From: Acidobacteriaceae bacterium
Lineage (GTDB): Bacteria > Acidobacteriota > Terriglobia > Terriglobales > Acidobacteriaceae
Direction of reading: 5' to 3'
Length of the DNA stretch: 64,000 nucleotides
Assembly: GCA_025356095.1 (NCBI GenBank)
Contig: JANXUR010000076.1
Span: forward strand, 1-64,000
Every line of letters begins with the position of its first letter. Position 1 is the stretch's first letter. Below the pieces are notes generated by a model. That model saw only the letters and a list, made by a program, of their open reading frames with translations. It was not told the DNA's origin and did not search any database. Made by a program: the position numbers and the translations under genes. Positions 31,126 to 35,120 of this stretch are shown in pieces.

Positions 31126-33273
31126 ATGCCTGCCGAACAAAACCACCTTGCTCACGCCGCCTCGCCGTACCTGCGCTCTGCCGCACACCAGCCTATCCAC
31201 TGGTTTGAGTGGGGAGAGGCTGCATTCGCCGCTGCCCGCGCTGCGGGCAAGCCCATCTTGCTAGATATTGGAGCGGTTTGGTGCCACTGGTGTCACGTAA
31301 TGGACCGCGAGTCCTACGACGACCCCGCCATCGCCGAAATCATCAACCAGCACTTTATCGCCATCAAGGTAGATCGTGACCAGCGGCCCGACGTGGATAG
31401 CCGCCACCAAGCCGCGGTCAGCGCGCTCACTGGGCAAGGCGGCTGGCCGCTGACTGCGTTCCTCACACCCGAGGGGAAGCCGTTTTACGGGGGCACTTAT
31501 TTTCCGCCGAATGCTCAGTACGGCCGCCCCAGCTTTCGCACCGTGCTCAACGCCATTGCAGCCACATTTGCCGAAAAGCCGAACGAAGTCGCCAAGCAAG
31601 CGGATCATGTGCTGACCACGATTCAGCGCGGCGAGAACTTCGCGGCCGGTAGCGGTGATTTTTCGCCAGCCATCGCTGAAGCTCTGATGCAAGCCATGAC
31701 CGGCTCAGCGCTCAAGAGCTTCGACCCCGGCCACGGCGGCTTTGGCCATGCGCCCAAGTTTCCGCACTCGCCTGCGCTGGATTTTGTGATGGATCGTTAC
31801 AGCCGGAGCGGCGATGCCCGCCTGCGCCAAATCTTTGCGCAGACGCTCGAAAACATGGCTAAGGGCGGCGTCTACGACCAGCTCGCGGGCGGTTTTCATC
31901 GTTACTCGGTGGACGAGCGCTGGGTGGTGCCGCACTTCGAGAAGATGGCTTATGACAACTCGGAGCTACTGAAGAACTACGTGCACGCGTATCAACTGAC
32001 CGGCGAAGCCTTCTACGCCGACGTGGCCTGCGACATCATCCGCTGGATGGATGAGTGGCTTAGCGACCGCGAGGCGGGTGGTTTCTACGGCTCGCAGGAT
32101 GCGGACTACTCACTGGAAGATGATGGCGACTACTTCACGTGGACTGTGGCTGAAGCAGGCGAGGCCTTGAGCGCACTTGAGTTCAAAGTGGCTGCGGTCT
32201 ACTTCGACATCAACGAAGTTGGCGAGATGCACCATAACTCTGCCAAGAATGTGCTGTATCAGCGGGCGAGTCTGGAGGAATGCGCCCGCCGCAGCAGCGT
32301 TTCGGCTCAGGAGGCTGCCGATCTTCTCACTTCAGCAAAGTCCAAAATGTACGCCGCACGCAAGCTGCGCCCCACGCCCTTCGTGGATAAGACCATCTAC
32401 GTCAACTGGAACGCGATGTGCATTTCTGCCTACTTGACGGCGACCCGCGTGCTCGACCTGCCCGCGCCGCAACAGTTTGCCCTAAAGTCGCTCGATCGCA
32501 TGTTGGCCAAAAGCTTTGACACCGCAGGCCGCCTGCTGCACATTGTCGCCAGCCATGGGAATTCGGTGCCCACGCCGGGATTTCTGGAGGACTACGCCAT
32601 GCTCGCCATCGCCTGCCTCGACGCCTACGAAGCGACTGCCTGTATGGACTACTTCTACGCCGCGCAGCGCTTAGCCAACGAGATGGTCACGGCTTTCTTC
32701 GACGTAACCTCCGGTGGCTTCTTTGACACGCCTCATGCGGTAGCGGGCGGCCCGGTACCTCTTGGCGTACTCACCACGCGCCGAAAGCCCTTTCAGGATT
32801 CACCCACGCCGGCGGGTAACTCCGTCGCAGCCATCACCTTGTTGCGGCTGCACGAATTGACCGGCATAGCCTCCTATCGCGAGCAGGCCGAGCAAACGCT
32901 CGAACTCTTTTCCGGCGTCGCCGAGCCATACGGCATCTTCGCCGGAACCTACGGTCTGGCGGCGATCCACTTCACCGCCCCGCACCAGCAAGTGGTAGTG
33001 GTAGGCGGTGACGCGGTTGCCTCCGCAATGGTGGCGGTGGCGATTCAGCCCTTCGCCCTTACCCGCATCGTGCTAAAAGTAACCCACGCGCAAGTCGCGT
33101 CCGGCGATTTGCCGCCCATGCTCGCGGAGACCCTCGCGGCTTTGCCCAACTTGGCCGCGGGCGCAACCGTGGCTCTGCTGTGCAGCGGCAACACCTGCCA
33201 GCCACCCATGGGTTCGGTCGAGGAATTGCGCCGCGCACTCGCCCCGGCTGGCAGCCTGCCCGGCGCGAGCTAG
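31126..33273 (+). CDS. YyaL/DUF255 thioredoxin-domain protein
   Basis: This 715-residue protein has an N-terminal thioredoxin-like domain (NHLAHAASPYLRSAAHQPIH, then DIGAVWCHWCHVMDRESYDD with the CHWC active site) and a C-terminal six-hairpin-like (alpha/alpha)6 region (FAPKFPHSP-like HAPKFPHSPALDFVMDRY, WVVPHFEKMAYDNSELL, QDADYSLEDDGDYFTWT). This architecture is the SSP411/spermatogenesis-associated protein 20 family; activity is unproven, with epimerase-like or protein-modifying roles suggested. It is monocistronic and convergent with the small peptide genes. Length is normal. Confidence 0.93.
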   Translation: MPAEQNHLAHAASPYLRSAAHQPIHWFEWGEAAFAAARAAGKPILLDIGAVWCHWCHVMDRESYDDPAIAEIINQHFIAIKVDRDQRPDVDSRHQAAVSALTGQGGWPLTAFLTPEGKPFYGGTYFPPNAQYGRPSFRTVLNAIAATFAEKPNEVAKQADHVLTTIQRGENFAAGSGDFSPAIAEALMQAMTGSALKSFDPGHGGFGHAPKFPHSPALDFVMDRYSRSGDARLRQIFAQTLENMAKGGVYDQLAGGFHRYSVDERWVVPHFEKMAYDNSELLKNYVHAYQLTGEAFYADVACDIIRWMDEWLSDREAGGFYGSQDADYSLEDDGDYFTWTVAEAGEALSALEFKVAAVYFDINEVGEMHHNSAKNVLYQRASLEECARRSSVSAQEAADLLTSAKSKMYAARKLRPTPFVDKTIYVNWNAMCISAYLTATRVLDLPAPQQFALKSLDRMLAKSFDTAGRLLHIVASHGNSVPTPGFLEDYAMLAIACLDAYEATACMDYFYAAQRLANEMVTAFFDVTSGGFFDTPHAVAGGPVPLGVLTTRRKPFQDSPTPAGNSVAAITLLRLHELTGIASYREQAEQTLELFSGVAEPYGIFAGTYGLAAIHFTAPHQQVVVVGGDAVASAMVAVAIQPFALTRIVLKVTHAQVASGDLPPMLAETLAALPNLAAGATVALLCSGNTCQPPMGSVEELRRALAPAGSLPGAS

Positions 33274-33427: not shown

Positions 33428-33562
33428 CTACTTGCACTTGCGTCCGGGTGGGCACGGAATGGGGCCACCATCGGATGCCATCATGGCGGAGGGAGCGGCG
33501 ACCGCTGCAAAACTGCAAATCACTACGGCCAGCAGAATCATAGAACGCACAGTGTTTTTCAT
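33428..33562 (-). CDS. Small secreted peptide, tandem copy A (44 aa)
   Basis: ATG 33562 follows AAGGAGAA by 7 bases. The product has a basic start (MKNTVRS), a hydrophobic core (MILLAVVICSFAAVAA) and the tail PSAMMASDGGPIPCPPGRKC-K. It looks like a Sec signal peptide cut after an AxA site, releasing a short, basic, Pro/Gly-rich peptide with two Cys. The Cys in the hydrophobic core is not in a lipobox. Its last 24 residues are identical to those of copies B and C although the DNA differs at 12 synonymous codons from copy B. I know no family for it. Function unknown. Confidence 0.85.
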   Translation of the reverse strand: MKNTVRSMILLAVVICSFAAVAAPSAMMASDGGPIPCPPGRKCK

Positions 33563-33678
33563 CAGAATTTCTCCTTGGAGTCTATGGGTCTCTTGCAAAT
33601 GCAACAAAGCAAAACGTTGAATGCTCTCCAGCCGGCGTAGCAGTGCCGGTCCACCCCTGAAGAGCCAGGAAAAGCTGC

Positions 33679-33813
33679 TTACTTGCACTTCCGGCCGGGA
33701 GGGCACGGAATCGGGCCGCCATCCGAGGCCATCATGGCCGAAGGGGCCGCTACCGCTGCAAAACCACAAACCACCACTGCCAGCAAAATCAACGAACGCA
33801 CGGTGCTTTTCAT
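33679..33813 (-). CDS. Small secreted peptide, tandem copy B (44 aa)
   Basis: ATG 33813 follows AAAGGAGAA by 9 bases, a strong ribosome site. The product starts MKSTVRSLILLAVVVCGFAA and ends in the same invariant tail SDGGPIPCPPGRKCK. It shares the 44-residue length and all features with copies A and C. The gap to copy A is 116 bases and to copy C 113 bases. After the stop it shares AAGCAGCT with copy C, a trace of duplication. Each copy has its own ribosome site; whether they share a promoter is not visible. Confidence 0.88.
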   Translation of the reverse strand: MKSTVRSLILLAVVVCGFAAVAAPSAMMASDGGPIPCPPGRKCK

Positions 33814-33926
33814 TGTTTTAAGTTCTCCTTTGGGATGTGACTCCATACCGCATCTACCGCACCTGCCACTACAAGCCATTTGTTCTTTGCCACTTACCTG
33901 CGAAACCGCCAGCCAGCCTGAGCTGC

Positions 33927-34061
33927 TTACTTGCACTTGCGGCCGGGAGGGCAAGGAATCGGACCACCATCCGAGGCCATCATGGCCGAAGGGGCCGCAA
34001 CGGCTGCATAACCGCACAAAACCACTGCTAAAAGCACGAGAGAACGCACGAGTTTGCTCAT
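33927..34061 (-). CDS. Small secreted peptide, tandem copy C (44 aa)
   Basis: ATG 34061 follows GGAGGA by 6 bases. The product starts MSKLVRSLVLLAVVLCGYAA and ends SDGGPIPCPPGRKCK. It is the copy nearest the upstream membrane-protein gene (stop at 34191), with which it might be co-transcribed. Only the signal region varies among the three copies (K/S, N/S/K, I/V/L changes). Alternative readings are a hydrophobic type I toxin-like peptide or a secreted signalling or antimicrobial peptide; the AxA-rich cleavage region favours export. Confidence 0.87.
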   Translation of the reverse strand: MSKLVRSLVLLAVVLCGYAAVAAPSAMMASDGGPIPCPPGRKCK

Positions 34062-34190
34062 GGAAAATCCTCCAAAGTCACTACAAATGATTTGAGATTT
34101 GGGTTTTAGCCCGTGCGCAGGATTATACGAAGGGCCCTGGCCAAAGGGGGCGAGTAATTGTGGTTTTGTTCTGAATTCCGTAATAACTAG

Positions 34191-35120
34191 TTAGCGTCGG
34201 CGGACGGGCTCCGCCTCATCTTCTGTGCGGGATAACGCCCGTTCTACCAGACTCTCAAAGCGGGGAATCAGGGTTTCGCCAGACGCATCGGCCCGAATCT
34301 CCCTCAGTTCTTGCTCCCAGCGCTTGGTTCGAAGGGCCGAACCCGCTCGCGCCCCCGCCTCGGCGGGCATCAGCATATAGGCGATCCAAGTGAGGATGGC
34401 GACGTTGTACGCTGCTACATTAATCAGACTCAGCAGTTCATAGCTGGTTGACGCTCCTCCGCGAACCTCTAACAGACTCACGATTGTCGCCGCCAACGCC
34501 ATGATGCCAAAACCGAAGGCAACGCCAAAGCTGCGACTGCGCCAGGTCAACCCCAAATGCCGGATGAACACCAGCAGAAACAAGATGATGCCACATTGCA
34601 TCACCCGCAGGCTGCGCTCCAGAATCAGGATTGAATGCGAGATCCAGAGCAAATCGGTGCTGCTAGAGGAGGCTGCAACGACCACCGCAACCAGCACCAT
34701 GAGCAGACCCACCCAGCGGAACAGGAGTGTTCCTAGATCACGCAAAGCGTCAAACACACGAAAAACATCGCGGTAGACTTCTTCAATGGCACGAAAACCA
34801 AACGCCACGCTTAGCGTGCCGCTGATGCAAGAAAGATAAAAGAAGTGATCCTCTGAAAGCTGGGGCCGGGCCGCAAATTCAATCAAGAAGAAAAAAATCT
34901 GGGCAGCGGTGTAGGTAAAGAAATTGGGCCAGCGGCTTACCAGTTTGCGGCGCACCATTTCGATGCAAAGCAAACCCTGCAAGATCGGGTGCGCAATCCA
35001 CAGGGCGTAAAACACGAGTTCCAGGGGTCCCGTCATGTCGCTATGCACCAAGGCGGCCGTGCCGTGACGGTGGCTCAGCTGCCAATCAGTCCATGCCGCT
35101 TTCCGCAGCGGGACTGTCAT
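34191..35120 (-). CDS. Seven-segment integral membrane protein of unknown function
   Basis: The protein (309 residues from ATG 35120, or 281 from ATG 35036, MTGPLELVFYALW) has about seven hydrophobic segments, such as FFTYTAAQIFFFLIEFAA, LLMVLVAVVVAASSSS and CGIILFLLVFIRHLGLTW, then a soluble basic C-terminal tail of ~70 residues. Charged residues at segment ends and FRAIEEVYRDVFRVFDALRD between segments are notable. I recognise only a resemblance to uncharacterised acidobacterial membrane proteins. It lies 129 bases upstream of the three small peptide genes on the same strand; a functional link is possible but unproven. Confidence 0.78.
   Translation of the reverse strand: MTVPLRKAAWTDWQLSHRHGTAALVHSDMTGPLELVFYALWIAHPILQGLLCIEMVRRKLVSRWPNFFTYTAAQIFFFLIEFAARPQLSEDHFFYLSCISGTLSVAFGFRAIEEVYRDVFRVFDALRDLGTLLFRWVGLLMVLVAVVVAASSSSTDLLWISHSILILERSLRVMQCGIILFLLVFIRHLGLTWRSRSFGVAFGFGIMALAATIVSLLEVRGGASTSYELLSLINVAAYNVAILTWIAYMLMPAEAGARAGSALRTKRWEQELREIRADASGETLIPRFESLVERALSRTEDEAEPVRRR

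Follow-up and report, generated by a model that had tools for sequence, protein, structure and literature searches.

Signalling by peptides that act on standalone seven-helix receptors is typical of eukaryotes. To our knowledge, the bacterial peptide systems described so far rely on kinases or on receptors in the cytosol, and we know of none that pairs a secreted peptide with a standalone seven-helix transmembrane (7TM) protein. The locus described here places three small genes for a predicted secreted peptide beside a gene for such a protein. It lies in the window, by which we mean the whole 64,000-nucleotide stretch that was analysed (Acidobacteriaceae bacterium, assembly GCA_025356095.1, contig JANXUR010000076.1, positions 1 to 64,000), and its features are as follows.

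31126 to 33273, plus strand: DUF255/thioredoxin (YyaL/DsbH-like) protein, convergent neighbour, syntenic in most main loci (this locus and its orthologues in relatives)
33428 to 33562, minus strand: peptide gene A, encoding MKNTVRSMILLAVVICSFAAVAAPSAMMASDGGPIPCPPGRKCK; Shine-Dalgarno sequence (SD) AGGAG at 33571-33575
33679 to 33813, minus strand: peptide gene B, encoding MKSTVRSLILLAVVVCGFAAVAAPSAMMASDGGPIPCPPGRKCK; SD AGGAG at 33825-33829
33927 to 34061, minus strand: peptide gene C, first in transcription order, encoding MSKLVRSLVLLAVVLCGYAAVAAPSAMMASDGGPIPCPPGRKCK; SD GGAGG at 34069-34073
34062 to 34121, minus strand: leader between the -10 element and copy C, with a weak hairpin (MFE -9.8, z -0.5)
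34122 to 34127, minus strand: TATAAT -10 element upstream of copy C, at the same position in 39 other orthologous loci
34191 to 35120, minus strand: partner gene for a 309-aa seven-helix membrane protein, the putative receptor, predicted with N terminus outside and C terminus inside

An initial annotation had described three tandem 44-residue ORFs with good ribosome sites and identical residues 21-44, and we confirmed all three, each with its own SD, at the minus-strand positions above. Our recount of the last 24 codons agreed exactly with its 12 synonymous and 0 non-synonymous differences between A and B; the corresponding counts are 12 and 0 for A and C, and 5 and 0 for B and C. The amino-acid changes that it had noticed in the signal regions number 4 to 8 in residues 1-20 (synonymous/non-synonymous 6/4 for A/B, 6/8 for A/C and 7/6 for B/C). 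By the NG86 method, dN in the mature part is 0 in every pair, with a dS of 1.50 and 1.55 for A against B and C and of 0.34 for B against C. A dS of about 1.5 with a dN of 0 means that recent gene conversion, raised by the annotation as a possible cause of the identity, cannot explain the likeness of A to B or C. B and C share an unbroken run of about 31 identical nucleotides and have a lower dS in the mature than in the signal part, and limited local gene conversion between these two is possible. We rejected chance ORFs and recent gene conversion as explanations on the synonymous-only differences together with homologues in many genera. These data support the view that the window peptide is a real coding sequence under purifying selection, as had been proposed for a short product, and its signal sequence predicts that it is probably exported.

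A profile of the peptide (A1) recovered the homologues that the annotation had suggested searching for: at E<=0.01 it matches 131 of 398 genomes from the window's GTDB family. The named relatives that carry it are MAGs of Terriglobia/Terriglobales in the Acidobacteriota, and a typical family member reads MKRAVRMLILMVGLACTYVAVAAPMLPAPxGGPxPxCNPKxPxCPK. Beyond the family, the peptide-only profile gives weak matches only, whereas a profile of the 7TM protein reaches much further. Across genera it is the signal region that is better conserved: in close pairs its pairwise dN/dS is about 0.1-0.3, compared with roughly 0.3-0.5 or higher in the mature part, which diverges between genera and varies strongly among paralogous loci. 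On these comparisons, an invariant mature part characterises the copies within the window's genome and not the family. The annotation's "invariant mature region" thus fails as a family feature, and its contrast between the two parts stands within the window, where the mature part is under constraint, but not between genera. As it had supposed, the peptide belongs to no named family: Pfam, NCBIfam and PADLOC contain nothing that matches it, and against Rfam the locus gave no family at threshold and one sub-threshold match. A second tandem pair of family peptides was seen off the main locus (L091, G182:C4, about position 1380000); it has neither TATAAT nor hairpin, and no 7TM gene of the family was found among its neighbours.

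We fetched 40 main loci, and in nearly all of them the peptide gene lies directly downstream of a gene for a 7TM protein of about 305 aa that is orthologous to window positions 34191-35120. The co-occurrence with this membrane gene that the annotation had put forward for checking is therefore real. The gene after the peptide is convergent in 38 of the 40. When genomes were picked for the lack of a clear peptide at this site, the DUF255/thioredoxin gene was kept in 20 of 20 and the 7TM gene was not beside it. We rejected a functional link between the peptide and the DUF255/thioredoxin protein on this ground, and the gene probably lies outside the peptide-7TM system.

An exact TATAAT lies no more than 80 nt from the start codon in all 39 other main loci examined (chance 0.004 per such 80-nt stretch), and at L052-L090 it is found 40-70 nt before the peptide start. 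Behind the element in these 39 loci there is usually a strong hairpin at the 5' terminus (mean z -2.3), and then the SD. Among relatives the stem sequence varies and the structure is kept; the loop CUCCCAGG is kept in one clade among L052-L090. The hairpin of these leaders corresponds to no Rfam family, and the L052-L090 leader is probably mRNA-stabilising or regulatory. In the window, the -10 element of copy C has no consensus -35, and A and B, which have no TATAAT, are probably co-transcribed with C. The main peptide gene looks built for high expression, and one guess is that the three copies in the window compensate in dosage for the weak leader hairpin. A 16-nt motif, GGTNACYAAAGTAACC, lies 3' of the peptide stop in several genera; at L059 and L072-L090 it is often followed by a further GTAAC, ahead of a GGGCTGAC...GTCAGCCC-like hairpin. 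It is not a genome-wide repeat, with only one or two occurrences in each genome having it. We also considered a type I toxin, a dual-function RNA or an Rfam element, since the promoter is strong and there are a 5' hairpin and a conserved motif on the 3' side; the coding constraint favours a peptide over all three.

The partner protein matches no Pfam or NCBIfam model. AlphaFold2, run on 13 sequences, predicts seven transmembrane helices and a cytosolic tail helix (pLDDT 73, pTM 0.67), and the loops are positive inside (K/R 0.20 inside versus 0.07 outside). The inner third of the helices is more conserved than the outer (JSD 0.396 versus 0.273), as is the inner side as a whole compared with the outer (P = 1e-10), and the conserved polar residues E114, R169 and Q175 point toward the inner side and the middle of the bundle. 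The nearest solved folds by Foldseek are GPCRs, with a best E of 0.035, TM scores of 0.33-0.45 and nothing below E 0.001; the top ten include Ste2 (chain 7ad3_A, rank 6, E 0.077). VIA-align gave Z values of 12.1-13.9 over 193-228 residues, which is near the helical-bundle background and may reflect a shared arrangement only; all 50 of the 50 rows shown were GPCR-type, natural or designed, and rank 1 was a de novo designed GPCR-like fold. No GPCR model appeared in Pfam scans, and a profile run against PDB sequences returned chance matches only. On the models, any resemblance of the 7TM protein to GPCRs is a likeness of fold only.

The open frames of the 7TM family are mostly 250-350 aa with no output domain fused to them; no fused kinase, cyclase or periplasmic domain was seen in the family, and no regulator is a constant neighbour of the gene. 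At 28 of 100 paralogous loci (L148-L247), a third gene follows directly, its start often overlapping the 7TM stop. It encodes a protein of about 185 aa with one transmembrane helix and a helical domain (PVDLEAFRNLIDPEEEEFLR...) that matches no Pfam family. Many 7TM proteins without this gene end in a conserved LIPMFEGMVDRAFSR-like tail, whereas many with it lack the usual C-terminal tail. With regard to a RiPP pathway, the gene for this family-less helical protein is the only recurrent extra gene seen at paralogous loci; the main-locus neighbours were clustered and partly annotated.

Searching with the 7TM protein revealed paralogues elsewhere, often several per genome, and several weak peptide matches from earlier searches lay right beside them. 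At most of the paralogous loci inspected, a small secreted-type peptide gene precedes the 7TM gene, as a rule by 10-160 bp, the opposite of the arrangement at the window's own locus, where it is downstream. The second 7TM copy in the window's own genome (L167) has the upstream peptide MKSSLRALVVLAFVLVTLTIQATADGLPVPSCDPTVTKNCPMPIKL. A class-wide search with the 7TM family was positive in 71 of 121 genomes at E<=1e-10, and 60 further loci from it served as a fresh set, with 300 upstream regions as controls. A tight rule (a signal-like start plus GxPxP or CxnC) selected 39 of the 60 fresh loci versus 8 of the 300 controls. A loose rule selected 48 versus 32, two of the 32 being real family peptides. 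The enrichment P values for the two rules (5e-29 and 6e-27) are indicative, since the loose rule was set after many fresh-set peptides proved to have no Cys; a strict Cys rule selected 15 of 60 versus 8 of 300, most of the fresh-set peptides having no Cys. Inspection by eye added further cases and brought the loci with a candidate peptide to about 50 of 60, and in one genome (G049) all eight 7TM genes are accompanied by peptides, eight different ones. Distant 7TM paralogues such as those at L165, L170, L177, L202, L206 and L214 have no evident peptide. Together, these sequence comparisons strongly support the pairing of peptide and 7TM genes. Within the phylum the system is mostly confined to Terriglobia, with two weak matches among the other genomes sampled, and the plasmids scanned gave no match.

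Several loci depart from the common layout. In family f5 (L229, L230, L234, L253, L254 and L255), Pro-rich ORFs of about 20 residues without a signal sequence, such as MVHFRGNPKGNPWPWPPRY and MLSFLKNVEGPLPMPWPPKV, have a strong SD and lie directly upstream of 7TM genes. L222 has a partly N-masked tandem array of nearly identical peptide genes upstream of its 7TM gene, encoding MNKIVRNAILAASLLAGFAATSYAGLxTAPPPTPHGLRK, and at L168 one peptide gene is followed by two tandem 7TM paralogues.

At least 17 precursors carry 2-8 near-identical units behind one signal sequence, commonly of the type ADGGxPxPPxP or GGPxPxCxPGxxC. The L235 precursor carries four copies of DGSGPVPPFPPKPP, and three copies are found of ADGxGPAPPFPPPL in L237, of KDGGSPPxMCIPGxNC in L171 and of FAGGGPxPxCDPxxC in L158. 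A four-unit precursor also lies ahead of a partial 7TM gene from another class of the phylum (L249). In several precursors the units differ mainly by synonymous codons (synonymous versus identical, 19/10 in L237, 14/5 in L240, 9/3 in L210 and 10/4 in L224), which indicates that the unit itself is under purifying selection. In L215 and L232, which have seven or eight units, the unit codons are mostly identical, and the expansion may be recent.

Of the signal, antimicrobial or matrix roles that the annotation had offered, a signal fits the 7TM pairing and the multi-unit precursors best. We found no positive support for a matrix peptide, which we set aside, nor for an antimicrobial peptide, which stays as a weaker rival. 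From sequence analysis we have the peptide genes, the 7TM genes that repeatedly lie beside them, the constraint on repeat units, the predicted 7TM fold and the polarity of its conservation. On these grounds we lean towards reading the peptides as secreted ligands that would bind, and signal through, the cognate standalone 7TM receptors encoded next door. With somewhat less than even confidence, we further suggest that Acidobacteriota may possess a peptide-hormone system of secreted, often multi-unit pro-peptides, each with its own GPCR-like 7TM receptor, and up to eight such pairs per genome.

Under the ligand reading, precursors would be exported by Sec. Cleavage would then release one unit, or 2-8 units from a multi-unit precursor, and the unit would bind the variable outer side of its cognate 7TM protein. 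Output may pass through the conserved cytosolic face and C-tail of that protein or, at about a quarter of paralogous loci, through the third, translationally coupled membrane-anchored protein instead. The three window genes would all yield one secreted peptide, about 15 residues long if cut between MMA and SDGGPIPCPPGRKCK, and possibly closed by a disulfide C8-C14; a tripled gene with a constant mature part is what is expected if every copy must serve one receptor.

Co-variation between peptide and 7TM protein bears on the same point. Across 118 pairs, mature-peptide similarity correlated with that of the 7TM outer side given the inner side (0.18, P = 0.003). Among 82 paralogous pairs, partial Mantel tests gave 0.147 (P = 0.002) for the mature peptide against the outer side given the inner side, versus 0.000 (P = 0.47) for the signal sequence against the outer side. 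When the main locus is taken by itself, a correlation with the outer side also appears for the signal sequence (0.39), so the co-variation lends the ligand reading weak support. Also counting against that reading, the partial correlations are small, the fold matches to GPCRs are weak, the 7TM protein has neither a fused output domain nor a regulator as constant neighbour, the signal region is so unusually conserved at the main locus that it might have a separate role, the f5 ORFs have no signal sequence and some distant 7TM paralogues have no evident peptide.

The strongest rival, which we consider unlikely, is that the small ORFs encode arrest peptides of the secretion-monitoring or polyproline kind (SecM/VemP/ApdP-like), which would stall the ribosome and so control translation of the downstream 7TM gene. 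Paralogous loci do have an ORF just upstream of the 7TM gene that starts like a signal sequence and ends in a Pro-rich stretch, and the leaderless Pro-rich ORFs of about 20 aa upstream of the f5 7TM genes could be read in this way. However, the main locus, including the window, has its peptide downstream of the 7TM gene and in nearly all cases a convergent gene after it, and stalling leaves unexplained the 2-8 internal units, the Cys pair, the tandem copies with the same mature part and the correlation with the 7TM outer side. The multi-unit precursors are also hard to reconcile with a bacteriocin-like toxin whose immunity protein is the 7TM protein, because such precursors are unusual among bacteriocins. 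Short secreted Cys/Pro-rich peptides that vary between loci, each with its own membrane protein and several pairs per genome, would suit a toxin, but the main locus is conserved vertically, keeps its gene order from genus to genus and has a housekeeping-like promoter, and neither a toxin or immunity family match nor a match on plasmids was obtained. We judge this explanation improbable.

About as improbable is a role as small subunit or chaperone, in which the peptide is not released but remains attached to the 7TM protein, within the membrane, by its hydrophobic N terminus. The greater conservation of this region than of the mature part across genera, and the way its similarity tracks the 7TM inner side (partial 0.41), argue for such a subunit; precursors with repeated C-terminal units, and the good SPase I sites seen by eye in many members (between AHA and D, AMA and D, or VFA and E), argue against it. 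Finally, the constant adjacency of the genes and the placement of E114, R169 and Q175 could indicate that the 7TM protein is an intramembrane protease or exporter that processes or exports a peptide whose target is elsewhere. Yet the peptide has its own Sec-type signal, the 7TM protein has no known protease motif, fold or family match, and its variable side is the outer one, all of which make this the least probable of the four.

As far as the sequence searches reach, the peptide, the 7TM protein and the third protein all fall outside named families. The open-access papers searched gave no description of the system; an earlier account in subscription papers or preprints is possible. Were signalling to be confirmed, the peptide and 7TM pairs could fairly be called a new kind of peptide pheromone system. 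If true, the ligand reading would give the first candidate peptide language of the Acidobacteriota, a dominant and poorly understood soil phylum, in which the genome itself would spell out the ligand and place the receptor gene beside it. Families of "hypothetical" genes that are easily missed (ORFs of 40-130 codons) would become testable with synthetic peptides.

Among known systems, 7TMR-DISM proteins and microbial rhodopsins share the seven helices, and rhodopsins are among the weak Foldseek matches, but the sequence of the 7TM protein described here matches none of the sensor families in Pfam or NCBIfam, and no fused domain was seen. SecM, VemP and ApdA/ApdP resemble the paralogous loci alone, where an ORF that begins like a signal sequence and has Pro in its C terminus precedes the gene for a membrane protein; they differ from the main locus, where the peptide is downstream of its partner with no same-strand gene after it, and from the repeated units and the Cys pair. 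With AgrD/AgrC, ComX/ComP, Phr/Rap and Rgg/SHP the system shares a short peptide with a putative dedicated receptor adjacent, diversified between loci and species. As in quorum sensing of the Agr/ComX type, a secreted-type peptide gene, so called from its signal sequence, lies beside a receptor candidate. Unlike these systems, ours is not constantly accompanied by a histidine kinase, a cytosolic receptor, a processing protease or an ABC exporter (at the main loci, no histidine-kinase, Rap/Rgg-type receptor or dedicated processing/export gene is a constant partner), its receptor candidate is a 7TM protein without an output domain, and its phylum is diderm. It differs from alpha-factor/Ste2 in being bacterial, in having adjacent genes and no sequence homology, and in that no G protein is known and no Kex2/Ste13-type sites have been shown. 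Its likeness to alpha-factor/Ste2 lies in a signal-bearing precursor with several near-identical Pro-rich units and a standalone 7TM partner with a predicted GPCR-like fold.
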